Source: an uncultured Verrucomicrobiota bacterium (GTDB lineage: Bacteria; Verrucomicrobiota; Verrucomicrobiia; Opitutales; Seribacteraceae). From it: 64,000 nucleotides of DNA. The notes under the pieces were generated by a model, which saw only the letters and a program-made list of their open reading frames with translations, was not told the DNA's origin and made no database searches. The translations under genes and the position numbers were made by a program. Shown here piece by piece: positions 27,349 to 41,625 of the stretch (position 1 is the first letter of the stretch; each line of letters opens with the position of its first letter). The stretch covers positions 1-64,000 of the forward strand of contig CACMZN010000006.1 of assembly GCA_902618175.1 (NCBI GenBank), in the 5' to 3' direction.

Positions 27349-28209
27349 TTAATCCTTCGAAGATTTCGGATCCAGGGCATCACGCAATCCATCACCAATA
27401 AAATTCAGGGAAAACAAGCTTATGCAGAAGAAGAGTCCGGGGAAGGAAAGTAGCCATGGAGCAGCATCCATTTTTTCCGCCCCTTCCTTAATCAAGCTTC
27501 CCCATGAACTCATGGGAGCCTGAACCCCAAGTCCGAGAAAGCTGAGAACTGCCTCCAACAGCATCACTGCGGGAACCGTCAAGGTAGCGTAAACGATTAT
27601 CGGACCCAGTAAATTGGGTAGTATATGATGAAAAAGAATTCGAGTGTGCGAATACCCAAGTGCATGTGCCGCCAAGACAAACTCCGCCCGTTTCAGACTA
27701 ATCGTCTGGGCTCGGGTGATTCGAGCCATGGTCAACCATTCTACGGCACCAATCGCTAGAAAGAGAAGAAGAAAATTTCGTCCAAACATGACCATCAGTA
27801 GAATGACGAAGATCGTAAAGGGAAGGGAATACAGAATGTCTACGATCCTCATTAGAAAGGCGTCGATTTTTCCACCATTGTATCCGGAAACCATTCCGTA
27901 AGTGACCCCAATGACTAAAGAAACAAAAGTAGCAAGTATGCCTACTGCCAAGGAAATCCTACCTCCATGACTTGTGCGTGCAAAGAGATCACGACCTAAG
28001 TTATCGGTTCCAAACCAATGCTCGGCGCCAGGAGCAAGAAAAACTTTTTCCAAATCCTGTTCGTCATATCGGTATTTGCTGAATAGCGGACCTAAAAGGG
28101 AGAATAAGAGGATAATTAGAAATAGAAAAAGACTGATCATGGCCATGCGATTGGCGCGTAATCGCATCCATGCATCTTTGCCGAGGGATGATCCTGCTGG
28201 TTCGTTCAC
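27349..28209 (-). CDS. Oligopeptide ABC transporter permease, DppC-like
   Basis: The permease has an N-terminal helix (MISLFLFLIILLFSLLG), the LGTDNLGRDLFART-type segment written FGTDNLGRDLFARTSHGGR, and the EAA loop with the GLGVQAPMSSWGSL ending that are diagnostic of DppC/OppC. I chose a GTG start at 28207-28209. Its GTGA overlaps the TGA stop of the upstream DppB gene at 28206-28208, the same coupling used elsewhere in this operon. A longer frame could begin at a TTG at 28239. It would form the channel with DppB. Confidence 0.93.
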   Translation of the reverse strand: MNEPAGSSLGKDAWMRLRANRMAMISLFLFLIILLFSLLGPLFSKYRYDEQDLEKVFLAPGAEHWFGTDNLGRDLFARTSHGGRISLAVGILATFVSLVIGVTYGMVSGYNGGKIDAFLMRIVDILYSLPFTIFVILLMVMFGRNFLLLFLAIGAVEWLTMARITRAQTISLKRAEFVLAAHALGYSHTRILFHHILPNLLGPIIVYATLTVPAVMLLEAVLSFLGLGVQAPMSSWGSLIKEGAEKMDAAPWLLSFPGLFFCISLFSLNFIGDGLRDALDPKSSKD

Positions 28210-29126
28210 TTCTGTTCCCTTGCTTTCGGATCCAACCAAGCTTGCAGAAAATCAATCAAAAGATTGAGGGATACAATCAAGGTTGCGTAAAAAAGAACCG
28301 TGCCCAAGACCATGGTGTAGTCTCGATTAAACGCTGCGGTGACGAAAAACTTCCCAAGCCCGGGGATAAAGAAAATGCTTTCGATGATGAAGGATCCGCT
28401 CACAAGCCCGGCAAACGCCGGTCCCAAAAAAGTAACTACTGGAAGCAAGCCTGCTCTCAGGGCGTGTTTGTAGACAACTCTCGCAGGTGACGCTCCCTTG
28501 GCCCGAGCCGTTCGAATGTAATCATGCTTGAGAGTTTCGAGCATCCCTGCTCTCGTCAGTCTGGCCACGTAGGCTGCGTAGAAAAGACCAAGAGTACACG
28601 AAGGCAGGACTAAGTCCGACCACGAATACCAACCAAGGGGAGGAAGAAGATTAAGCGTGCTGGAAAAGACTAAAATGAGCAGCGGTCCAAGAACGAAAGT
28701 GGGCAAGCATATGCCAATCATTGCAAGACTCATAGGTAGATAATCCCAAATCGTGTTCTTTCTCAAGGCGGCAATGATACCTGCGGGTAGTCCGATGATG
28801 AGAGCAATCACTAGGGCACAGGTTCCTAAGGTCATGGAAACGGGAAATGAAATTCCTATAAGTTCCGAAACTTGCCAACCCAAGTATTTGAAGGATGGAC
28901 CAAGATCTCCTCGGAGAAGATTCTTCATATAAAGCAAGTATTGATGGAAAAGGGGAAGGTCTAATCCGAAGTGACTCTCGAGCTGGACCTTGATTTCCTC
29001 AGGGATTGCCTTTTCCGAATCAAAAGGGCCCCCTGGAGCGAAACGGGTCATGAAAAAGGTAATGGTTGCAATTGCCAAAAGCGTGGGAATCGCCTGAAGA
29101 ATTCGTGAAAGTATGAATGACCTCAT
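28206..29126 (-). CDS. Oligopeptide ABC transporter permease, DppB-like
   Basis: The permease has the standard opening MRSFILSRILQAIPTLLAIATITFFMTRFAPGGPFD, of which only short segments are quoted here, six membrane helices, and the EAA loop LKHDYIRTARAKGASPARVVYKHALR-type. The start is the ATG at 29124-29126, which overlaps the TGA of the binding-protein gene (ATGA). A longer frame would add 22 residues from the 3' end of that gene. It pairs with the DppC-like protein. Confidence 0.94.
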   Translation of the reverse strand: MRSFILSRILQAIPTLLAIATITFFMTRFAPGGPFDSEKAIPEEIKVQLESHFGLDLPLFHQYLLYMKNLLRGDLGPSFKYLGWQVSELIGISFPVSMTLGTCALVIALIIGLPAGIIAALRKNTIWDYLPMSLAMIGICLPTFVLGPLLILVFSSTLNLLPPLGWYSWSDLVLPSCTLGLFYAAYVARLTRAGMLETLKHDYIRTARAKGASPARVVYKHALRAGLLPVVTFLGPAFAGLVSGSFIIESIFFIPGLGKFFVTAAFNRDYTMVLGTVLFYATLIVSLNLLIDFLQAWLDPKAREQK

Positions 29127-30805
29127 GGCTCCTCTTCCTTTTCCAGGTAGACAAATTTGTAGGGGTGATGATCTAGAAGAGTCGGATACCACCCTTTTAC
29201 GGTGGGATGACGAAGCGTGACGTGAACATAAAAATAAAGCGGTAGAATCGGAACTTCCTCTGATAGAATTTCCTCACATTGCTGAAAAAAATTGAGTCGG
29301 ACTTGCGAATCAGTTGCGGTCTCAGCGAGATCAAGAAGTTGATCATACTTTTGGTTCGACCATCCAGTCTGATTGTGTCCGTCGTTGGTACGCCACATGT
29401 GTAGAAAGGTGTTGGCATCGACGTAATCTCCAATCCAACCACCTCGAGCCATTGAGTAATCACCCTTGGAAATGGTCGATAAAAAAACTTTCCATTCCAT
29501 GTTTAATAATTTGATTTCGATTCCTAGGCTTTTTTTCCACATTGCTTGCAAGGCTTCGGCGACTTTCTTGTGCCCCTCGGAGGTATTATAAGTCAATTCG
29601 ATCGGAGGCATTTCCTCGAGTCCCTTTTCCAAAAGGTATTCTTCGATCAGAAACTTTGCTTTCTGCGGATTGTATTCAAATTGGTCGTTTGCGGTAAAAC
29701 CGCCAGTATTGGGAGGAGTGAAGCAAAAGGAGGGCTTTTGTCCCCCTTTCAGTACTTTTTCGACAAGGATTTGCCGATCCACTGACATACTGAGAGCTTT
29801 TCGAATCCGCATATCATCAAAAGGGGGGGTCAAATGATTAAAGCGATAGAAATAGGTTCCTAAATATGGTTCAAAATGAATCCAATCCGGATGATTTTTT
29901 TGCAAATAATCAATTCGATCCGAAGAAACTGTCTGGGTGAGGTGCAGAAAACCAGACCGGAATGCTCTTTCTTCGGTATCAACCGCTTCAATCGGATAAA
30001 AGCGGATTCCATTCAATCTGGTGTTGTCCGCATCCCAGTAGGTTTTGCTGGCGGTCACTTCGATGACCGAATTCACACGATGATCCTTGAGCTTGAAAGG
30101 TCCGTTTCCAACAAAGTTTGTGGGTTTCGTCCATTGGGATCCAATCCGGTCAAATGCATCATGTTTTTTGATGGTGGGGGGATGAACGGGGAACCATGAA
30201 TAATGATTGAGCAATTCAAGAAAGTAAGGAGTCGGGTTTTCCAAAGTAAGTTCCAAGGTAAGTTTATCGGTAGCTCGGACTCCCACTTCGGCCTTCTCCC
30301 AAGGAATGCTTCTCTGGTGGTAAGCTTTTGCGTTTTTCAAAACGTGAAGCATCGACGCATATTGCGATCCCAGATCAGGATTGAGAATGCGTCGATAAGA
30401 ATAAACGAAGTCATAGGCAGTGACCGGGTCGCCATTTTGCCATCTGGCATTTTCACGCAGATGAAAGAGATAGGTTTTGCGATCCTTGGAAATCGACCAA
30501 CTTTCGGCAACCCCAGGTTCCGGCTCCAAGGTCTTTGGGTTTTCACTCACCAAACCTTCCAAAAGAGCCGACAATACGTTATGAGCGGAAACGCTTGTCG
30601 CTAGTTGCGGGTCGAGATACTGAGGTTCCGCGCCAAGTCCAAAATGCAGGATTTGATTTTCGATTGCCTTTTCCACATTTGTTGGAGCAGAACAAGAAAA
30701 AAACAGACAACTCCAAGACAAAAACATGGTGGAGGTTAGGAAAACTTTTATTGTCTGAATGTGGGAATAATAGATTTTACAAAAAGTGGAGCGTTTTTCT
30801 AACAT
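29123..30805 (-). CDS. Oligopeptide-binding lipoprotein (SBP family 5, OppA/DppA-like)
   Basis: The 560-residue protein has a leader with a lipobox-like LFFSC, then LHFGLGAEPQYLDPQLATSVSAHNVLSALLEGL, the start of the family 5 binding-protein fold (quoted in part). Other family marks are VAESWSISKDRKTYLFHLRENARWQNGDPV and YSYRRILNP. It should bind oligopeptides in the periplasm and pass them to the permease pair. The ATG at 30805 yields a long leader (about 38 residues before the Cys); an internal ATG at 30727 would give a shorter, more typical one. It is the first gene of the minus-strand operon and divergent from the Yej-type operon. Confidence 0.93.
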   Translation of the reverse strand: MLEKRSTFCKIYYSHIQTIKVFLTSTMFLSWSCLFFSCSAPTNVEKAIENQILHFGLGAEPQYLDPQLATSVSAHNVLSALLEGLVSENPKTLEPEPGVAESWSISKDRKTYLFHLRENARWQNGDPVTAYDFVYSYRRILNPDLGSQYASMLHVLKNAKAYHQRSIPWEKAEVGVRATDKLTLELTLENPTPYFLELLNHYSWFPVHPPTIKKHDAFDRIGSQWTKPTNFVGNGPFKLKDHRVNSVIEVTASKTYWDADNTRLNGIRFYPIEAVDTEERAFRSGFLHLTQTVSSDRIDYLQKNHPDWIHFEPYLGTYFYRFNHLTPPFDDMRIRKALSMSVDRQILVEKVLKGGQKPSFCFTPPNTGGFTANDQFEYNPQKAKFLIEEYLLEKGLEEMPPIELTYNTSEGHKKVAEALQAMWKKSLGIEIKLLNMEWKVFLSTISKGDYSMARGGWIGDYVDANTFLHMWRTNDGHNQTGWSNQKYDQLLDLAETATDSQVRLNFFQQCEEILSEEVPILPLYFYVHVTLRHPTVKGWYPTLLDHHPYKFVYLEKEEEP

Positions 30806-30887: not shown

Positions 30888-32312
30888 ATGCGCGATTATT
30901 TCATCCGTAGGTTCCTCTTGATTCCTCCGACTCTCTTAGGAATAAGCATTATGGTCTTTGCAATCACACGTCTCGCTCCAGGTGGACCATTGGAGCAAGC
31001 CATGATGCAAATGCAACAAGTTTCGGAGGAAGGAGGAGGAGGCAAAGGCGCGGGTACGGAACAAGCGCTCTCCGAGGAACAGCTCGAACAAATGAAACGG
31101 CTCTATGGCTTCGACAAGCCTCATTGGGAAGCCTATCTGATATGGCTCGGCTTACGTCCAAGAGAAATAGAATTTAGAGAAATTCGTTTCTTGGGTGATG
31201 AAAAAAGCTTGGCCGAACGAGTGAGTTTGCCTGGTTTTCATCTTTCTGACTTAGACTGGAATCGAGACGGTTACTTACAGAAAAACGAAGTGCCCGTTCA
31301 TCTCTCGAGGTATGTGAATTTTGATTTGTTTGACCTCAACCAAGATGGCGAGATTGATGGAGTTGAGGCAGATCGTTCGGAGTCATTCATTCAACGAGCC
31401 CGAGAGAAGATACTGGTTGAAAGAAACGGAAAAGGAGACGTTCGCATCGTCAACCAAGATCGTTTGCTTGGAAATTGGAATATTCGGATGAAGCAAAATC
31501 GCCCGGACCAACCCAATGCAAAACCGGTGGCCGAGCTTTTCATGACGAGTTATCAAGGAATTATGCAAGGTAATTTTGGAGAATCCACTCGCTATGGAGA
31601 ACCCGTTTTTGAAGTCATTTACAAACGTCTGCCGGTTTCGACTTACTTTGGTTTGCTGACCTTTTTTTTCACCTATTTGATTTGCATTCCCCTTGGTGTA
31701 TACAAAGCCGTCAGACACAACTCGCCTTCGGACGATCTTTCCTCGGTTTTAATCTTCATCGGCTATGCGGTTCCCGGATACGCCCTTGGCTCGCTTTTGT
31801 TGCTATTCTTTTCCGTCAAATTGGATTGGTTACCGATGGGGGGACTTACGGGTGTTGCATTTGAGGAACTTTCTCCTTGGGGCCAAGCAAAGGATCTATT
31901 CGCTCATACTGTTCAGCCCTTGTGTTGTTATTTGATCGGGGGCTTTGCGTTTGTAACAATGTTGATGAAAAATCATCTTATGGACAATCTCTCTTCCGAC
32001 TACCTACGCACGGCTATGGCCAAGGGTATCTCTTTCCGTGACGCCGTGCGCAAGCATGCGCTTCGAAATTCGCTTGTTCCCCTGGCTACGAACGTTGGCC
32101 ATCAAGTAACCCTTTTCGTTACCGGTTCATTCCTCATCGAAACGATCTTCGACATAGATGGTTTTGGTTTGCTTGGATTTAATTCGGTTATCGACAGGGA
32201 TTATCCCGTAGTCATGGGCGTCCTCACACTTTCGGCTTTTCTTATGCTGTTGGGCAATGTTCTGTCCGATGCCTTGGTCGCAGTCGTTGATCCCCGCGTT
32301 CGTTTCGAATGA
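30888..32312 (+). CDS. Peptide ABC transporter permease, YejB-like, with EF-hand insertion
   Basis: The 474-residue protein starts like DppB/YejB (MRDYFIRRFLLIPPTLLGIS, TRLAPGGP) and ends with the normal five helices and an EAA loop (SSDYLRTAMAKGIS). Between the first helix and the second it carries a long insertion of roughly 220 residues. Inside it are two perfect 12-residue EF-hand loops: DWNRDGYLQKNE (residues 123-134) and DLNQDGEIDGVE (149-160). Each has D, N, D, G, a hydrophobic residue and a final E at the canonical positions. The insertion should face the periplasm. Normal YejB proteins are about 360 residues. The stop overlaps the next start (ATGA). Confidence 0.92.
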   Translation: MRDYFIRRFLLIPPTLLGISIMVFAITRLAPGGPLEQAMMQMQQVSEEGGGGKGAGTEQALSEEQLEQMKRLYGFDKPHWEAYLIWLGLRPREIEFREIRFLGDEKSLAERVSLPGFHLSDLDWNRDGYLQKNEVPVHLSRYVNFDLFDLNQDGEIDGVEADRSESFIQRAREKILVERNGKGDVRIVNQDRLLGNWNIRMKQNRPDQPNAKPVAELFMTSYQGIMQGNFGESTRYGEPVFEVIYKRLPVSTYFGLLTFFFTYLICIPLGVYKAVRHNSPSDDLSSVLIFIGYAVPGYALGSLLLLFFSVKLDWLPMGGLTGVAFEELSPWGQAKDLFAHTVQPLCCYLIGGFAFVTMLMKNHLMDNLSSDYLRTAMAKGISFRDAVRKHALRNSLVPLATNVGHQVTLFVTGSFLIETIFDIDGFGLLGFNSVIDRDYPVVMGVLTLSAFLMLLGNVLSDALVAVVDPRVRFE

Positions 32313-33388
32313 AAGAATATTTCAAGCTGAATCCGATCACTCGAAGGAAACTTCACCGTTTTCGGTCAATCAAGCGAGGTTATTATTCTTTTCTCTTCTT
32401 ATTCTTTTTGTTTGGACTCAGCCTTCTTGGAGAATTGTTCGTAAACAAGAGAGCTTTGTTGGTTTGGTATGAAGGAGAGTTGTTCCTACCGACTTATGGA
32501 AGTCAAATTAGCGGAACAACTTTTGGTTTGGATTACGCATACGAGACCAACTACCGCGAACTGAAGACAAAATTCAATTTGGAGAACGAGGGAAATTGGG
32601 TTCTTATGCCATTTGTGCCCTACGATCCTTTCGAAATGGACTATGCCGAAGCTGAATCAACCGGCTTTTCCCCACCCAGCTTTTCCGACGGTCATTTTTG
32701 CGGGACAGACAAAACGGAGAGGGATGTACTAGCCCGCTTGCTGTACGGTTTTAGAATTGCGATGATCTTTTCCTTTGGTTATCTCATCCTAACTTACCTG
32801 ATTGCTCTTTCGGCTGGGTGCGTGATGGGATTTTTTGGAGGTAAGACGGATATTGTAGGTCTTAGATTGGTCGAGATTTGGGCAAACATTCCTTTCCTCT
32901 ACATGGTGATTATTTTGGTTTCGATCATGCCTGGTTGGTGGGGAGTCGGATGGCAAGTATCTTCCTTGCTCATAATAATGGTTCTTTTTTCGTGGACCGG
33001 CATGACCTATTACATTCGATCTGCGGTTTTTAAGGAAAAGAGTCGAGATTACGTCGCTTCGGCAAAGGTAGTCGGAGCAAGTCCTTTACGCATAATTTTT
33101 CGGCATCTTTTGCCCAACGTCGTATCCACTCTCGTAACTTTTGCCCCCTTCACAATTGCAGCGGCAATTTCATCGATCACAGCACTTGATTTTCTTGGCT
33201 ACGGATTGCCAGCGCCAACTCCCAGTTGGGGCGAGCTTCTCAAACAGGGTGTCAGCAATTTAAGAATTGCTCCTTGGATAGTTATCTCAACCGTCGGCGC
33301 CCTTGTCCTTACCCTCACCCTGGTGACTTTTATCGGAGAGGCAGTAAGAGAGGCATTTGACCCGAAAAAATTCTCAACTTTTGAATAA
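32309..33388 (+). CDS. Peptide ABC transporter permease, YejE-like
   Basis: The 359-residue protein opens with the YejE-type region TRRKLHRFRSIKRGYYS, then a helix and NKRALLVWYEGELFLPTYGS, which matches the periplasmic start of YejE. It continues with FCGTDKTERDVLARLLYGFR and five helices. The EAA loop reads SRDYVASAKVVGAS and the end has FLGYGLPAPTPSWGELL. Translation is coupled to the YejB-like gene by an ATGA overlap. In E. coli YejABEF takes up microcin C and peptides; substrates here are unknown. Confidence 0.93.
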   Translation: MKEYFKLNPITRRKLHRFRSIKRGYYSFLFLFFLFGLSLLGELFVNKRALLVWYEGELFLPTYGSQISGTTFGLDYAYETNYRELKTKFNLENEGNWVLMPFVPYDPFEMDYAEAESTGFSPPSFSDGHFCGTDKTERDVLARLLYGFRIAMIFSFGYLILTYLIALSAGCVMGFFGGKTDIVGLRLVEIWANIPFLYMVIILVSIMPGWWGVGWQVSSLLIIMVLFSWTGMTYYIRSAVFKEKSRDYVASAKVVGASPLRIIFRHLLPNVVSTLVTFAPFTIAAAISSITALDFLGYGLPAPTPSWGELLKQGVSNLRIAPWIVISTVGALVLTLTLVTFIGEAVREAFDPKKFSTFE

Positions 33389-33390
33389 AA

Positions 33391-35601
33391 ATGAAAAAAA
33401 ACCATCATCGAACCAACTCCTTTCTATCGTTCCTGATTCTTTTCTTCTCCGGATGTGAGGATCACAAGCTCAAACAACCCCGTGAAGAGCGATATGAGAA
33501 TTCATCTTCCAAAGATTCAATTCGTGAAGAATCCTTGATCGATCGAGAATTTGCCAGAGATCTAGCCAGAGAATTCGGAAGGGAGTTTGCCCGAGAACTC
33601 GCCCTCCAATTGACAGAGGGTAATCATTCGATTGCTTATTCAACCCTCAAACTTTCGGGTTCCGCAGGTCAAGACTTGCGAACGGAAGATTTGACGGATG
33701 CAGACGGAAACCCGCATCCCTTGCTTGCTCATTGTTCGGAGGACGTCTTGGAATTCTATTGCAGGAATCCAGATGCCTTTTCCATCGAAAGATTGGGAGA
33801 TATGCCGGAAGGCTTGGTTTGGAAGGATGGATCCAGTGAGTTGGAGTTTGCGTCTTCTGAGGCAAAAAAAGGAGGCACCTGGAACGTATTCATGAGTGAT
33901 TTTCCCCGAACTTTACGGACCATCGGACCGGATGCCAATGGGGCTTTCCGAAGCTACCTTTTAGATTACAACGCCATGTCGCTGGTCATGACCCATCCGA
34001 ATTCTGATGGATATTTCCCGGGGTTGGCGAGGTCATGGGCAGTGAGCAAGGATGGAAAGACAGTGTATTTCAAACTTGATCAGAATGCTCGTTACAGTGA
34101 CGGAAAACCAGTACGAGCCAGCGACTTTTTCTTCACTTTTTACTTCATGAGAAGCAAGCACGTACAGGCACCCTGGTACAATGATTATTACGGTAAGGAT
34201 AAATTCCCAAAGGTTACCCTCTACGATGAAAAAACCATTTCAATTACCTTTTACAAGGCCAAGCCCGATGTGGTCGAAAGAGTTTCAATCCGTCCCATAC
34301 CTGAACATTTTTACGTCGAGTTGGACGGAGAATTCCTAAAGAAATATCAATGGAATCCAGAACCTACAACTGGTCCCTACGTTGCCTTGCCGGAGAATGT
34401 GGACAAAGGAAAGAGCATCGTCCTCTTAAGGCAGAGAGATTGGTGGGCAGATCAAAAGAGATTTTATCGTTATCGTTTCAACCCCGACCGCATTCGTGTA
34501 AGCGTGGTTCGAGACTACAACAAAGCCTTTGAAATCTTTTTAAAGGGGGGGATCGACATGTTTGGTTTGGCAAAAACCGAATTCTGGTATGAGAAAATTC
34601 CCGACGATCATCCTTTGGTAACCAACGGATACCTCAGTAAAGTGACGTTTTTCAATCAGGTGCCGCCTCCTTCCTTTGCCCTGCGGATCAATTCGCAGAA
34701 AGCTCCTTTAGACAACAAGGATCTGAGGATTGGTTTTCATCATGCAATGAATTTCGATTTGATTCTTAAAAAGATCTTTCGAGACGATTACATACGGATG
34801 AATACAGTGGCAGATGGTTATGGAGACCGTTCCCATCCTACATTGCGGGCCCGGGAATTTTCCGTTGAAAAGGCAGTTGAACATTTCAGCAAAGCGGGTT
34901 ATTCCAAAAGGGGTCCGGATGGTATTCTGATCAATGAAAACGGGGAACGGCTTACCCTGGAATTATTAACCGGATACAAGCCTTATGAGGATGTTCTTGT
35001 CGTACTTAAGGAAGAAGCCAAAAAAGCTGGTCTGGAGTTGAAACTCAAGATTCTCGAGCAAACTGCGGCTTGGAAAACGGCCGGCGAAAAAAATCATCAG
35101 GTCGTCTTCTCCGCCTTCAATTCCTCAGTGGAATTGTTTCCTCGATTTTGGGAGCCCTATCATTCGGACAATGCCTTCAAAGAGGTTGGTGACTTAAAGT
35201 ACGAGTCGGACGGGAAATTAAAGCCAGACCTCACTACCAAGCCAAGCACCAATAACCTCACTCAAACTGCGGTAAAGGAGATTGATCATTTGATCGACCT
35301 TTACCGTCCTGAGGAAGAATTGGAAAACATCACCGATATGGCCCACCGTTTGGCTGAGATGATTCATGATCATGCGGTGTATGTGCCGGCATGGAAAAAA
35401 CCATGGCTTCGCCTTGGTCATTGGAATTGGATCAAGTTTCCCGAAGATTGGGGACCCAAGGAGACTCGGGATTACGAGGAATTTCAAGTCTTCTGGATCG
35501 AGGAAAAGGAGAAGAGTGAAATTCTTCAAGCGATGGAGCAAGGTAGATCGGTTTCCAACAAACCAACGGTTCGGATCTACGAAAAATACAAGACTCATTA
35601 A
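33391..35601 (+). CDS. Peptide-binding lipoprotein, YejA-like
   Basis: The 736-residue protein has a lipobox-type leader (FFSGC, Cys22) and a long N-terminal region before the family 5 binding-protein fold, which begins around residue 150 (GGTWNVFMSDFPRTLRTIGPDANG). Other family marks are ARSWAVSKDGKTVYFKLDQNARYSDGKPV and the Trp-rich C-terminus. Residues 52-71 are five back-to-back R-E-F-A-type tetrapeptides. It is longer than YejA (about 600 residues) because of that extension. It begins 2 bases after the YejE-like gene and is followed by two ATPases. Confidence 0.92.
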   Translation: MKKNHHRTNSFLSFLILFFSGCEDHKLKQPREERYENSSSKDSIREESLIDREFARDLAREFGREFARELALQLTEGNHSIAYSTLKLSGSAGQDLRTEDLTDADGNPHPLLAHCSEDVLEFYCRNPDAFSIERLGDMPEGLVWKDGSSELEFASSEAKKGGTWNVFMSDFPRTLRTIGPDANGAFRSYLLDYNAMSLVMTHPNSDGYFPGLARSWAVSKDGKTVYFKLDQNARYSDGKPVRASDFFFTFYFMRSKHVQAPWYNDYYGKDKFPKVTLYDEKTISITFYKAKPDVVERVSIRPIPEHFYVELDGEFLKKYQWNPEPTTGPYVALPENVDKGKSIVLLRQRDWWADQKRFYRYRFNPDRIRVSVVRDYNKAFEIFLKGGIDMFGLAKTEFWYEKIPDDHPLVTNGYLSKVTFFNQVPPPSFALRINSQKAPLDNKDLRIGFHHAMNFDLILKKIFRDDYIRMNTVADGYGDRSHPTLRAREFSVEKAVEHFSKAGYSKRGPDGILINENGERLTLELLTGYKPYEDVLVVLKEEAKKAGLELKLKILEQTAAWKTAGEKNHQVVFSAFNSSVELFPRFWEPYHSDNAFKEVGDLKYESDGKLKPDLTTKPSTNNLTQTAVKEIDHLIDLYRPEEELENITDMAHRLAEMIHDHAVYVPAWKKPWLRLGHWNWIKFPEDWGPKETRDYEEFQVFWIEEKEKSEILQAMEQGRSVSNKPTVRIYEKYKTH
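33544..33603 (+). repeat. Five tandem 12-base repeats coding R-[ED]-[FL]-[AG]
   Basis: Five consecutive 12-base units code REFA, RDLA, REFG, REFA and RELA. The units differ at silent and conservative positions, so the peptide repeat is better kept than the DNA repeat. It lies in the lipoprotein N-terminal region between the lipid anchor and the binding domain, and should form an amphipathic charged helix. Confidence 0.85.
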
Positions 35602-35620
35602 CCTGATTCTTTTCGCTTAA

Positions 35621-36619
35621 ATGACAGCACCTAAGGAAAGATCCAAACTTCTTCAAGTTAGTGATCTTTCCGTTTCTTTTGAGATGGACGAAGGAGAGGC
35701 GCAAGCTTTGGATGGAGTAAACTTTGAGGTTGGTCATGGTCAAACCCTTGGTCTGGTGGGGGAGTCGGGTTGCGGAAAGAGCGTGACTGCGCTCTCCATT
35801 ATGCGCCTGCTGCCCAAACCAATGGGAAAAATTCCAACGGGCAACATACTCTTCGAAGGGGTAGACCTCCTCCAGCTTTCTCCTGATAAAATGAGGGAAG
35901 TGCGCGGCAACGAGATTGGCATGATTTTCCAAGAACCGATGAATGCTTTAAACCCGGTTAAGAGAATTGGTGATCAGATCGGGGAAGTTTATCTGCTCCA
36001 TCATAGGATGCAGAAGAAGGATGCCTGGGATAAATCTGTTGAAATGCTCGAAAAAGTGGGTATTCCTTCTCCCCGAACCCGAGCCATGGAATACCCTCAT
36101 CAATTGTCGGGAGGAATGAGGCAACGTGTGGTCATCGCCATGGCATTGGCTTGCAGTCCCAAGCTTGTAATTGCGGACGAACCAACCACTGCGCTCGACG
36201 TTACGGTCCAAGCCCAGATACTTGCCCTTCTCGATGAGCTGCAAAAAAGTCTTCGTTCTTCGGTACTTCTGATTACTCACGACCTTGGTGTAATAGCAGA
36301 GACTTGCGATGAAGTATGCGTTATGTATGCAGGGCGCATCGTTGAGCGAGCCAGTACTCAGGAGCTCTTCGCCAATCCGCGTCATGCCTACACGCGAGGT
36401 CTTCTGTCCTCCATTCCTCGGCTTGATGGAGTTCCCAAGACCAAACTCGTGGCCATCGAAGGGATGGTGCCAAGCCTTTCCGAGCTTAAACCAGGTTGCC
36501 GTTTTGCTCCGAGAAGTGGATTACACCATCCCAGCGAATTACTTGATGAAAAACTTCCTTATCGTGAAATCTCGCCTGACCACTGGGTCGAAGCTTGTCC
36601 GGTTTGTTCGGATTCATGA
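35621..36619 (+). CDS. Peptide ABC transporter ATPase, DppD/OppD-like
   Basis: The 332-residue ATPase has Walker A GESGCGKS, signature LSGGMRQR, Walker B LVIADEP and switch His LLITHD. It ends with the oligopeptide-transporter C-terminal segment rich in Cys ([17 protein letters not shown]), which in related ATPases binds an iron-sulfur cluster. It is the fourth gene of the Yej-type operon. The stop overlaps the start of the next ATPase gene (ATGA at 36616-36619). Confidence 0.94.
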
Positions 36620-37602
36620 GCGAAGAAGAAAACATTTTAAGCATCGAGAATCTTCGTGTTTATTTTCCGGTCAGGGGAGGAGTCTTTCGTCGATCAAAAG
36701 GATTCTGCAAAGCAGTTGATGGAGTAAGCCTTATTTTGAAGGATGGACAGACACTTGGTTTGGTTGGCGAATCAGGGTGTGGAAAATCAACTCTCGCCAA
36801 GACCGTCGTCGGGCTGATCAAACCAACTTCAGGATCAGTGAAATTCAAAGGCAACGAAGTCCTACGGTCGGGCCGGTCCATGCCCAAGTCTTACCGCAGA
36901 GAGGTGCAAATGGTTTTCCAAGATCCAGCGGAATCCCTTAATTCGAGGCATACGGTAGGAGCGATTGTCCGCGAACCGCTGGAAATTCACGGAATGGGCA
37001 ACAGGGATCAGCAAAATGAGCGCGTAATCCATCTTCTGGAGCAAGTCGGGCTTCCCGCGAGTTGCTCAACCCGCTATCCGTTCGAGTTTTCCGGCGGTCA
37101 ACGACAGCGTATTGGAATCGCGCGCTCTCTAGCTCTGAATCCAGATATGCTCTTGCTCGATGAACCGGTTTCAGCTTTGGACGTATCGGTTCAAAGCCAG
37201 GTGCTTAATTTACTGATGGAGTTGCAAAACAAGTTAGGTTTGAGCTATATGTTCATAGCCCATGATTTGGCGGTGGTTAAGCATGTTTCAGACATGATTG
37301 CAGTGATGTACTTGGGGAAAATCGTGGAAATTGCATCTGCCGAAGAACTCTATTCCAATCCTCTGCACAACTACACCAAAGCTTTGATCTCGTCCATTCC
37401 ATTGCCTGATCCAACTCAATCCACTTCAAAGGTAATTATTCCGGGGGATGTGCCTTCTCCAATAAATCCTCCTCCCGGATGTGCTTTCGGACATAGGGTA
37501 TCATCCCCACGATATCCGGAAAGCATTGGTGAAATTCTTGAAATGAAGGAGATCGAAAAGAATCATTGGGTCCTTGCCTGTCCTTGCTGTGTAAGCGGTT
37601 GA
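36616..37602 (+). CDS. Peptide ABC transporter ATPase, DppF/OppF-like
   Basis: The ATPase has Walker A GESGCGKS, signature FSGGQRQR, Walker B MLLLDEP and switch His FIAHD. Its C-terminal domain contains PPPGCAFGHR and ends in ACPCCVSG, again with paired Cys of the oligopeptide type. I chose the ATG at 36616 in the ATGA overlap. A longer frame would start at a TTG at 36595. It closes the Yej-type operon: YejB, YejE, YejA, then two separate ATPases. Confidence 0.94.
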   Translation: MSEEENILSIENLRVYFPVRGGVFRRSKGFCKAVDGVSLILKDGQTLGLVGESGCGKSTLAKTVVGLIKPTSGSVKFKGNEVLRSGRSMPKSYRREVQMVFQDPAESLNSRHTVGAIVREPLEIHGMGNRDQQNERVIHLLEQVGLPASCSTRYPFEFSGGQRQRIGIARSLALNPDMLLLDEPVSALDVSVQSQVLNLLMELQNKLGLSYMFIAHDLAVVKHVSDMIAVMYLGKIVEIASAEELYSNPLHNYTKALISSIPLPDPTQSTSKVIIPGDVPSPINPPPGCAFGHRVSSPRYPESIGEILEMKEIEKNHWVLACPCCVSG

Positions 37603-37691: not shown

Positions 37692-39431
37692 ATGCTCAAA
37701 CTTGATCAGTGCCTTCGTCTCTTGCTCGTAATTGTTTTTTTACAAGCTTTTCGGATCTTCGGGCAAACTCCGGACAACATGCCTTTGAGACAAGTCATTT
37801 CGGAAGCGCAGAAGCTGATAGGAGAAGGGGATTTTGCTGGTGCCTCTCCTTTTCTCGATGAGTTGGAAATACGCTTCCAGGACGAAAAGGATCCAGAAGT
37901 GGAGAAAATTCTTCAGCAATTTGGATTTGTCAGGGGTGTTGGTTATCTGCAGAGCTTCGCCAAAAATGGTGACCAGGATTTTCTTGCTAAGGCAGCCAAG
38001 GCTTTTGGATTCTTCGCTGAACAATTTCCCAATGATCCCAAGGCGGTTTCTGCAATGCAAAAGAGAACCGATTGCCTGAGAGCGCTACATGAGTGGAAAA
38101 TGGCAGCTTCAGTGATCGAGACCCTTCTCGATGAAAACCAACCTTACAAAAAGCAAATCATCAAGCGAAGTGAACTTTTGAGTCTTTATCACGGAAGGGC
38201 TCAATGTTATCACATTATGCAAGACTGGGTTCGTGGAGAGTCCTCGTTCCAATCTCTTCTTAAATTCGCCGACTTTGCCAAAGACGAAGATCGAGGAGCA
38301 TATGCCGTATCATGCCTGACGGAGATGTATGTGCAAAACAAAAGAATTGACGAAGTGTTTCCTTTGTTGCCGCGTTTGTCCGGAGACACTCCTGCCCGTT
38401 ACGATCTGAGATTGAATGTAAATCTTATGCAAGGAGCCGAATTGCTAACTAAAGCCGAAAGACATGTGGATGCTTCCCTTCTTTATTCCCTGACTATGAC
38501 CACGGAGGAAATCATAACCTATTATTCAAGCAGAGAGGAGCGACTGCAAACCGAACTTTCCAGACTCGAACAGTTTCTCGCCATTCAAGGATCTCGACTT
38601 CCTCAACGAAGACTGGAAGTGCTTAAGGAAAAGGTCAACGGTTTGGCCATGCAATTGACAAATTCAAAAGGGCAATTGAATCTGGCGAAGAATACGCCTT
38701 CTTTCACCACCACTCTCAGGTGGAGAAAAGCTGATAATTTTCAAACAACCAGCAGAGATTGGGAGTCCTTTTGGGGATTCTACTGGTTATACAAGGATTT
38801 CCCTGATCACGAAAGCGTTGAAAATTTCCTCTACGCAGCCTTCGCCTCCGCCAATAAGGTTAGTTTTAGAGAGCGATCCATCGAATTAGGCGAGGAATAT
38901 TTGGCTAATAAGAACTGGGTGAAATTTCGTCCGGACGTCACCTTCATCATGACAAACGCTTACAGGGAGGAAGCTGAAAATCTTCAAAGAATTGCCTCAA
39001 CCTATCAGACTGCCTTGACCACGGTAGAGAGGAAAAAAGGGGACGATGCCAAACAACGATCTTCTGAATATTACGACAGATTCTTTGATTTGTGTGATGA
39101 TTTCCTCGAAGTCATGCCTGAACACAAGTATGCCAGGGATTTCGTTGGAATGATGGGATCCGTATACTTTAAAAGAAAAAAATTCGACGATTTGCTCCGT
39201 AAGTTTGCAGGCTATGAAAATGGCGTCATGAATCCATCCGAGGGATATGTTAATCGTGAGGCTTTTAGAAAAAGCCCTGCCATGTCTACAGCCCATTATA
39301 TGAGTGGACTGGCGTTGTTGGCGACGGGAAAATTTGATGAAGCAAAACCTCTGCTGGGAGCAGTCGTTGGGGTGAGTGTGAAGGGTTTGCCTCTAACCGA
39401 TGGTTCCTTGGCTCAAAATGAGGAGGATTGA
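37692..39431 (+). CDS. Exported tetratricopeptide-like repeat protein A
   Basis: From the ATG at 37692 the protein has a signal peptide (MLKLDQCLRLLLVIVFLQAF) and about 555 further residues, nearly all helical. Repeat-like helix pairs with Ala/Phe/Tyr at TPR positions occur throughout, e.g. LAKAAKAFGFFAEQFPNDPKAVSAM and LLYSLTMTTEEII. A central coiled coil (YYSSREERLQTELSRLEQFL) interrupts the repeats. It is the first of three exported repeat proteins upstream of ExbB and two ExbD genes, and probably forms part of a periplasmic structure driven by that motor. A longer frame from 37617 would place the leader internally and is less likely. Confidence 0.75.
   Translation: MLKLDQCLRLLLVIVFLQAFRIFGQTPDNMPLRQVISEAQKLIGEGDFAGASPFLDELEIRFQDEKDPEVEKILQQFGFVRGVGYLQSFAKNGDQDFLAKAAKAFGFFAEQFPNDPKAVSAMQKRTDCLRALHEWKMAASVIETLLDENQPYKKQIIKRSELLSLYHGRAQCYHIMQDWVRGESSFQSLLKFADFAKDEDRGAYAVSCLTEMYVQNKRIDEVFPLLPRLSGDTPARYDLRLNVNLMQGAELLTKAERHVDASLLYSLTMTTEEIITYYSSREERLQTELSRLEQFLAIQGSRLPQRRLEVLKEKVNGLAMQLTNSKGQLNLAKNTPSFTTTLRWRKADNFQTTSRDWESFWGFYWLYKDFPDHESVENFLYAAFASANKVSFRERSIELGEEYLANKNWVKFRPDVTFIMTNAYREEAENLQRIASTYQTALTTVERKKGDDAKQRSSEYYDRFFDLCDDFLEVMPEHKYARDFVGMMGSVYFKRKKFDDLLRKFAGYENGVMNPSEGYVNREAFRKSPAMSTAHYMSGLALLATGKFDEAKPLLGAVVGVSVKGLPLTDGSLAQNEED
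39421..39426 (+). promoter_or_regulatory. Strong Shine-Dalgarno site AGGAGG
   Basis: AGGAGG lies six bases before the ATG at 39433 and inside the end of the previous gene. It is one of very few canonical sites in the window, and it decides the start of the lipoprotein over an upstream in-frame codon at 39400. Confidence 0.8.
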
Positions 39432-39432
39432 G

Positions 39433-41625
39433 ATGAAAGATAACTGGATAAGGTTTCGAAAGAAATTACTGTTTTCTTTGCTCGGTTTTTTGTTTTCGTG
39501 CGGAGGGGATGAAGAGGTCGAGTCAAGCGGACTAACTGACAACTTCGAAGAATCTGTCGAAGCAGAAGTGATCGAGGAGTTTTCTCAGTCAGATACTACA
39601 GAAACTCTTCCCCCACCTATTTTGGACAAAGAAGAAGTTTCTCTTCCAGACCCCAACGGCATCTACTTGCCTACTTCTGATGAGCCTAAAAATGGTTTTC
39701 CTGTTTTTGAGAATCGTGAAGGTTTTTCACTTTGGCATAATGGTTCAAGTTGGAGAATCACCGATCGTAGTGGAGGAGGTAAACTGGTTGCATCGGGACC
39801 AACTGAAATAAATGGCGATTGGACCGGAGGGGGAGTCTTTCGTCAATACCCGGATGAGGAATATGAAAAAGATGCTCTTTTCAGACTCGCGGTAGCCTAT
39901 CAAGGCTCATCGGAAAATTTGGATGCAATTCGATTGTTCGAACAATTCGTTGTTCGGTTTCCCGAAGACAAATTGGTGGCTCAGGCATACCTAAGCCTTG
40001 GTGATTTATCGATAAGTGAAGTGAATCCCGATGAACAACCAAGCTTTGAACAGATAAGTAATGCCCGGAGAAACTATTCCCTAGTCCGAAAAACCTCTGA
40101 TGATTTGACTCTCATTTCAGATGCTGCTTTCAACGAAGGAGGATTGCTCGAAAGGGTAGCTGAAAATCCGGAAGGACTCGTCAATCACTATTACCTCTTT
40201 GATGCAGACAAAGATGAAATGATTTCTGAAAAGGAACTTTCTGAAATTGAGAGCTTATCCACTCTGCAGATTGCAGACTTTGATCTCAACGGGGATACCT
40301 TGCTCGACTACGGAGAATTGTTTGATCTTGCTAGTACTTTGACCTATATGCAAATTGAAAACCTGTTCAAGGATTACAGCCTGCAGTTTGGCGATAGAGA
40401 AGGAGCAAGAATCTCTTTAGCAACGGCAAAAATTGGGTTTGCCTGCGAAAAGCAGGGACGACCTTCCGAGATGCTCAAACTTTATTTCGAGGACATTAGA
40501 AAATACGGCAACGATCCAATGCGAGTAGGTGTGGACGAAATTCTCAAAAAATACATCAAGAAATATGACGAGTATGAGACTCTTTATGGTCAAACTCTTG
40601 ACTTGCTTCGAAAAGTGAAAAACAAGTCGGAAGCTCTTTCATTCACTTACAGGAATCGTAAAGGCATAGAGGAGGTGATAGCAGGAACCGTGGAAGAGAT
40701 AATCAAGGATCGAACAAAGCTTCTACCACTTCTTTCTTCTAAGTATGCTGGAATGGATTCGGAAATCTACAGTGAATTGGCCAAGCTTAAGGGTGCGGTT
40801 TTCATAAATCCCAAATATGAGAAGAAATTCCAGGGATATCTCTCGAAGTATGAAAAACTAAGCAACGACTTTCCGGAAGATCTATCACCGGTGAATGCTT
40901 TTTCTAAACTTTTGCAGGAATCCATCACTACGAGACAAAAATCCTTGGAACTTCGGATGAGAGCCATTCTAGATTCTACGGATTCTGTGGTGGGGGGAAA
41001 CTACAATCCGAATCGAAGTGATTTTCCTGCTGCCAGTCCCGGAGCCTTAGTCTGGATGGCAAAGAAATTGTTGGACCAGTCATCAATCGAAGATGCGGTT
41101 GCCGCAATGGAACAATTGCTTGAAGTATACGGTGAAAGCGGCGGAGAGTTTCTCTTTGACGCTCACTACTTGATTGGCCAAGCAAAGGAGAAGGAAAGGG
41201 ATTATCAGTCGGCTGCGTTTCATTTCGAATCTGCTCTCATGAATTCCTCTTGGCACGAAAAAGCCAACGATGCCAGATTGCGACTGGGCAACGCATCTTT
41301 CGAAGTGGGAGAGTCAACCAAAAATGAAGCATCTTTCGAAAAAGCCAGATCCTCCTTTAAGGAGATCAGAGGAGATTCCGATGCCACTTTGGAGATGAGA
41401 GCACAAGCCTCATTCATGATGGGAGAATGTCAACGGTCCCTAAAGGATGATGCAGGGGCTGCATTCTTGTATTTGGAAACGACTTTGAATTTCCCAAGTT
41501 CACTCAAATGGACTGCCAAATCTTTTGAAAAGGCGATCATTGCTTATGAGAAAACCGGTCAGACCGAACAGGTCAGTCGTCTCCAAACTCAGTGGAATGA
41601 TTGGGAAAGGAAATACAACAAGTGA
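39433..41625 (+). CDS. Repeat lipoprotein B with EF-hand pair
   Basis: From the ATG at 39433 (preceded by AGGAGG) the protein has a lipobox LFSC-G-G and about 705 more residues. After an acidic linker come TPR-like repeats (YPDEEYEKDALFRLAVAYQG) and a calcium-type pair: DADKDEMISEKE at residues 257-268 and DLNGDTLLDYGE at 284-295, each with ligands at positions 1, 3, 5 and 12. Further TPR-like units follow to the end. It is the middle of three exported proteins in the ExbBD cluster. It may respond to Ca2+ in the periplasm. The stop overlaps the start of the next gene by one base. Confidence 0.75.
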   Translation: MKDNWIRFRKKLLFSLLGFLFSCGGDEEVESSGLTDNFEESVEAEVIEEFSQSDTTETLPPPILDKEEVSLPDPNGIYLPTSDEPKNGFPVFENREGFSLWHNGSSWRITDRSGGGKLVASGPTEINGDWTGGGVFRQYPDEEYEKDALFRLAVAYQGSSENLDAIRLFEQFVVRFPEDKLVAQAYLSLGDLSISEVNPDEQPSFEQISNARRNYSLVRKTSDDLTLISDAAFNEGGLLERVAENPEGLVNHYYLFDADKDEMISEKELSEIESLSTLQIADFDLNGDTLLDYGELFDLASTLTYMQIENLFKDYSLQFGDREGARISLATAKIGFACEKQGRPSEMLKLYFEDIRKYGNDPMRVGVDEILKKYIKKYDEYETLYGQTLDLLRKVKNKSEALSFTYRNRKGIEEVIAGTVEEIIKDRTKLLPLLSSKYAGMDSEIYSELAKLKGAVFINPKYEKKFQGYLSKYEKLSNDFPEDLSPVNAFSKLLQESITTRQKSLELRMRAILDSTDSVVGGNYNPNRSDFPAASPGALVWMAKKLLDQSSIEDAVAAMEQLLEVYGESGGEFLFDAHYLIGQAKEKERDYQSAAFHFESALMNSSWHEKANDARLRLGNASFEVGESTKNEASFEKARSSFKEIRGDSDATLEMRAQASFMMGECQRSLKDDAGAAFLYLETTLNFPSSLKWTAKSFEKAIIAYEKTGQTEQVSRLQTQWNDWERKYNK

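Follow-up and report, generated by a model that had tools for sequence, protein, structure and literature searches.

A central issue in the study of ABC importers is how permeases hold and select their binding proteins; the subject here is a permease gene that encodes two EF-hand loops on the periplasmic side. This gene (474 aa, 30888..32312, + strand) lies in the 64,000-nucleotide stretch of Verrucomicrobiota DNA analysed here, referred to below as the window. Its BPD_transp_1 core is clear (PF00528, E 7e-33, 114.3 bits against a cut-off of 26.4) and its best NCBIfam match is the YejB model (NF011712, E 8.7e-69), in agreement with an earlier note on this DNA that named it YejB-like; since the 232 bits of this match are under the 445-bit cut-off of the model, we keep the term "YejB-like" instead of YejB proper. 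The start of a yejE-like gene for a second permease (359 aa, 32309..33388, +; PF00528 E 1.7e-26, NF011596 E 5.1e-76) overlaps the yejB stop, and is followed by a yejA-like gene for a substrate-binding lipoprotein of 736 aa (33391..35601, +; PF00496 E 5.7e-47, lipobox FFSGC with Cys22). The permease thus shares its operon with a YejE-like partner, a YejA-like binding protein and an ATPase encoded as two genes, the first (35621..36619, +) recognised by PF00005 (E 2.8e-29), PF08352 and synteny, the second (36595..37602, +, with a true start possibly a few codons further in than 36595) by an open reading frame that reads as an ABC ATPase and by its synteny in those EF loci whose contig reaches that far. 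This gene order, yejB-yejE-yejA-ATPase-ATPase, is conserved between families. Back to back with the operon stands a divergent set of the Opp type (oppA, oppB and oppC, 27349-30805, - strand), which is also kept in the relatives.

Judged from its genes, the system is a YejABEF-type peptide ABC importer of marine Verrucomicrobiota, that is, a known importer type in a previously undescribed variation, whose cargo would likely be peptides or muropeptides by analogy with the family. The same permease pair and binding-protein family are found in the YejABEF importer of E. coli (peptide/microcin C) and in the muropeptide importer YejBEF-YepA of Agrobacterium (PMC9790009), from which the present system differs by a 135-aa insertion with an EF-hand pair in YejB, a long N-terminal arm in YejA and two separate ATPase genes.

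The entire insertion, delimited from relatives and from an AF2 model, covers residues 88-222 (31149..31553, +) and consists of a beta-rich scaffold and of the EF-hand pair, residues 115-165 (31230..31382, +), the latter delimited by VIA-align superposition on EF-hand pairs and by the location of the EF-specific blocks of YejB. It is periplasmic and lies between the first and second membrane helices, as the earlier note had proposed, but does not fill this loop whole, being placed after a conserved scoop/helix segment (LYGFDKPHWEAYLIWLG) and before a QGNFGxSxR motif. Comparison with relatives distinguishes two nested insertions, a beta scaffold and, inside it, the EF pair, housed in the hairpin that joins strands 2 and 3 of the beta-rich segment: relatives of about 339 aa from Gammaproteobacteria and Opitutaceae have neither element, and relatives of 421-425 aa (L056-L060) have the beta-rich segment only.

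Translation, the EF-loop pattern and conservation agree on the two loops, DWNRDGYLQKNE (loop 1, residues 123-134, 31254..31289, +) and DLNQDGEIDGVE (loop 2, residues 149-160, 31332..31367, +), spaced 26 residues apart with a 14-residue linker, exactly where they had been reported, inside 31248-31370. They are the sole paired matches in a six-frame pattern scan of the 64 kb, which returned two other matches, both single and one interrupted by stop codons, and none in the YejA of the window. The description of these loops as perfect canonical EF-hands stands for the ligand positions and needs correction elsewhere. Position 2 of loop 1 is an invariant Trp among 30 homologues, a residue that the PROSITE EF-hand pattern excludes there, and position 2 of loop 2 is variable but never Pro; the residue following loop 2 is Ala and not a hydrophobic one, and the window protein alone scores 17.5-21.1 bits with the Pfam EF-hand models, under their 25.4 cut-off.

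These sub-threshold scores speak for acidic loops arisen by chance and binding no metal, a reading that we nevertheless consider very improbable. The inserts of the 30 homologues have diverged to 43-76% identity, and positions 1, 3, 5 and 12 of both loops have nevertheless remained invariant or D/N only, their mean entropy being 0.18 bits, compared with 1.50 in the remainder of the EF region, a level of conservation equalled by random eight-column sets with p ~1e-4, which contradicts a chance origin. All 30 share Asp1, Asp5, Gly6 and Glu12 in loop 1 and Asp1, Asp9 and Glu12 in loop 2. Pfam EF-hand_1 matches every one of these homologues at E up to 0.1 (best E 3e-7), the family profile retrieves EF-hand proteins from the PDB with lanmodulin as the best match (E 1.8e-6), and a homologous EF profile occurs in other families. 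The dN/dS of the EF region is 0.08 for the pair L033/L034, indicating purifying selection in the few usable pairs, most others being saturated. As far as their sequences can tell, the EF loops are more than chance.

An EF fold is also predicted. The AF2 model of the 135-residue insert (pLDDT 87.6, pTM 0.75) places short helices of about 4-6 residues on both flanks of each loop and connects the two loops by a beta-bridge, as EF pairs typically do, so that the helix-loop-helix and beta-bridge arrangement of EF-hands is present in the prediction. Its structural matches by VIA-align are mostly EF-hand pairs: residues 28-78 of the model (YejB 115-165) superpose on MCFD2, calmodulin and troponin C with Z 4.5-5.1 and rmsd of about 2.5-3.5 over 45-51 residues, Z values near 5 being modest. 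Foldseek gave no match of the insert model at E <= 0.001, and the beta scaffold corresponded to no nameable known fold in a structure search dominated by the EF part. The model of the whole permease reaches only pLDDT 64.5 and pTM 0.53; the insert keeps its fold in it. The two outcomes that the earlier note had named as refuting its proposal, predicted loops without flanking helices and homologues with unconserved loop acids, were both checked, and neither was obtained.

The pair may then be regarded as a putative site for two Ca2+. Lanmodulin being the best PDB profile match, a site that senses or carries lanthanides, or a site for another metal, has to be weighed. The short linker is shared with lanmodulin: about 25 residues separate the loops in Ca2+-responsive EF proteins and 12-13 in lanmodulin (PMC10232371), the 14 of YejB being close to the latter, and both are periplasmic. 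The Asp at loop 2 position 9 in all homologues goes in the same direction. Lanmodulin is however a free soluble protein with a lanthanide role, whose four EF hands have Pro at position 2 (PMC10232371), and YejB has two loops without this Pro. No PQQ alcohol dehydrogenase scored above cut-off in the 42 genomes of the window's family, which also counts against a lanthanide function. Moreover, a linker as short as this is also common among secreted EF proteins of the phylum that have no transport role; those inspected (L114-L125) are free secreted proteins or other fusions outside transporters, unlike YejB, and carry two loops spaced 24-27 residues and a comparable DELP...F..LD.N.DG.ID..E stretch. 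We thus give the lanthanide reading very little credence, and such secreted proteins are the likely source of the EF module of YejB.

The location of the insertion points to the binding protein. In E. coli DppABCDF, DppB has behind TM1 a periplasmic scoop motif with which it docks into the binding protein (PMC12136057); the equivalent segment is kept here and the insertion follows it, so that the insertion should stand beside docked YejA, on the side of the permease where the earlier note had located it. DppB has no reported calcium site (PMC12136057) and the Dpp binding protein is soluble, whereas YejA is a lipoprotein. EF-type Ca2+ sites are known in ABC importers from the subclass G binding proteins AlgQ2, FusA and Smon0123 (PMC5717064, PMC5287374), and the EF-hand-like site of AlgQ2 touches the permease of the alginate importer, at the interface of the two proteins (PMC5717064). 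These are single sites in sugar-binding proteins, in contrast to the complete pair found here in the permease of a peptide importer; our literature search found no description of an EF-hand in an ABC permease, the known sites lying in the binding proteins of some sugar importers.

The new element reported here is on the facing partner. In all EF-type operons examined (30/30), the sequence of YejA contains a conserved amphipathic arm, which in the window covers residues 51-74 (DREFARDLAREFGREFARELALQL, 33541..33612, +), as delimited by the comparison of EF with non-EF loci and by an island of conservation. Its amphipathic helix (DREFARELAREFAREFARE), directly behind the lipid anchor, is strongly conserved between variable flanks. 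From the lipidated Cys to the binding domain, EF-type YejA count 94-116 residues, versus 34-75 in the operons without insertion or with the scaffold only and 84-90 in a type with a YejB of about 450 aa. In an HMM search of 87 non-identical loci, the EF pair and the arm were both present in 30, both absent in 57 and never discordant; the two HMMs were trained on the window's clade only and recovered both elements in a second clade, made up of other families. These loci are related by descent, which makes a simple contingency p-value unsuitable. On the permease tree the association comes down to two independent contrasts, from the only two EF lineages, which go in the same direction or are neutral and are too few for a significant test; they were scored with a strict arm regex that misses the arm in L042, L063 and L064.

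Within the scaffold-bearing clade, the blocks specific to EF operons are the EF segment in YejB and the arm helix in YejA, and the comparison of EF with non-EF operons gave no such block in YejE. Another candidate block at the C-terminus of YejA was rejected as an artefact of truncated loci. The closest operon devoid of EF pair (L056/L151) has a YejA without arm. The 450-aa type combines a different YejB insertion with a different helical arm in YejA, which fits the idea of matched parts. In one non-EF operon of this type (L139, G028), an EF-like loop, DGDENGSLDKNE, occurs within the YejA arm itself.

Taken with the predicted fold, the EF pair and the matching arm suggest a calcium-dependent clasp between permease and binding protein. 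YejB would bear a periplasmic ornament in two layers, with an EF pair holding two Ca2+ nested in a small beta-rich domain; this pair, probably always loaded in Ca2+-rich seawater, would act as a rigid docking clasp and grip the amphipathic helix of the YejA arm behind its lipid anchor, thereby holding the tethered YejA next to its permease. Directly seen are the two loops, how well they are conserved, the EF fold of the prediction and the strict co-occurrence with the arm; Ca2+ binding, the contact and the tethering are parts of the proposal. We put the chance that a Ca2+-loaded EF pair serves as docking clasp for the arm at about even, and the stronger form, in which YejA docking depends on Ca2+ and the two halves are gained and lost together, somewhat below that. 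The proposed working mode is that of calmodulin-type pairs, in which a loaded EF pair grips an amphipathic helix, with a contact that is hypothetical here; YejB has one pair only, with short helices and, unlike calmodulin, a 14-residue linker, so a calmodulin-like grip is not assured. If true, the clasp would mean that an importer of uncultured marine bacteria uses a calmodulin-like recognition step, and the idea lends itself to a test with one domain and one peptide.

Seawater Ca2+ is high, about 10 mM, and ordinary EF-hands should always be loaded there, which makes permanent loading likelier than gating. The earlier note had envisaged either a gating role of Ca2+ or a stabilised docking of the YejA-like lipoprotein; docking gains a partner element with an arm found only together with the EF pair, and gating finds no support. 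A calcium gate or sensor, turning transport on and off as Ca2+ binds and leaves with its external concentration, would suit the classic use of EF pairs as Ca2+ switches, and the EF-hand-like site of FusA-type binding proteins has been called regulatory (PMC5287374). The lineage nevertheless appears to be marine, where Ca2+ is high and stable, its own genome has few EF-hands and the gene context holds no pointer to Ca2+ signalling; we regard such a gate as rather unlikely.

The main rival to the clasp is a structural staple, in which Ca2+ permanently bound by the EF pair does no more than stiffen the insertion, the YejA arm being an independent spacer carried along in the operon. High ambient Ca2+ suits it, secreted Verrucomicrobiota proteins commonly carry short-linker EF pairs as ornaments, and the phylogenetic support for a joint change is thin. 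Operons move as units, and joint inheritance of the EF pair and the arm would thus require no contact between them; the arm could also lie on the membrane. Such a strong island of conservation between variable flanks is on the other hand more than a spacer needs, and the arm is absent from operons without EF pair, including the closest one. We hold the staple for a serious possibility, less probable than the clasp. Even then, the locus would clearly exemplify how a secreted EF-hand module came to be lodged in a transporter subunit, with the partner changing alongside.

The EF-type insertion is confined to a few families of Verrucomicrobiota. At full length it was found in the window's family (26 of the 42 genomes), in a second family of the order (one genome of three) and in a third family, of the same class (8 of 20 genomes). 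Elsewhere it is almost absent from the genomes sampled, 388 for the phylum and 384 for the class, and among the 80 relatives kept from the genome collection no case lies outside Verrucomicrobiota. EF-type permeases form two clades in the permease tree and a single clade is rejected (p-AU 0.017), so that one gain followed by losses, two gains or a transfer are all possible. Members of the second clade (L063, L064, L075, L144, L183-L185) are extended to 552-557 aa by a further stretch of about 80 aa inserted in a later periplasmic loop.

In some genomes of the window's family, the chromosomal place of the operon is occupied by another yejBEA set, whose YejB of about 450 aa is devoid of EF loops, which indicates that the operon was exchanged as a unit. 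In L161 and L162, yejB-yejE-yejA is replaced by a 38-47% identical set at the place of 30888-37602 of the window, and the neighbours are conserved up to exbB/exbD, an apparent exchange of the transporter at a conserved place. A short contig attributed to another genus (L005/L034, G034:C79) is 85% identical to the window's locus and may be a contamination of that MAG. Further along the window, a 741-aa TPR-type lipoprotein (39400-41625, +) carries a degenerate EF-like pair, DADKDEMISEKE at 40201 and DLNGDTLLDYGE at 40282, 27 residues apart, which is recognisable in relatives with variable loop residues.
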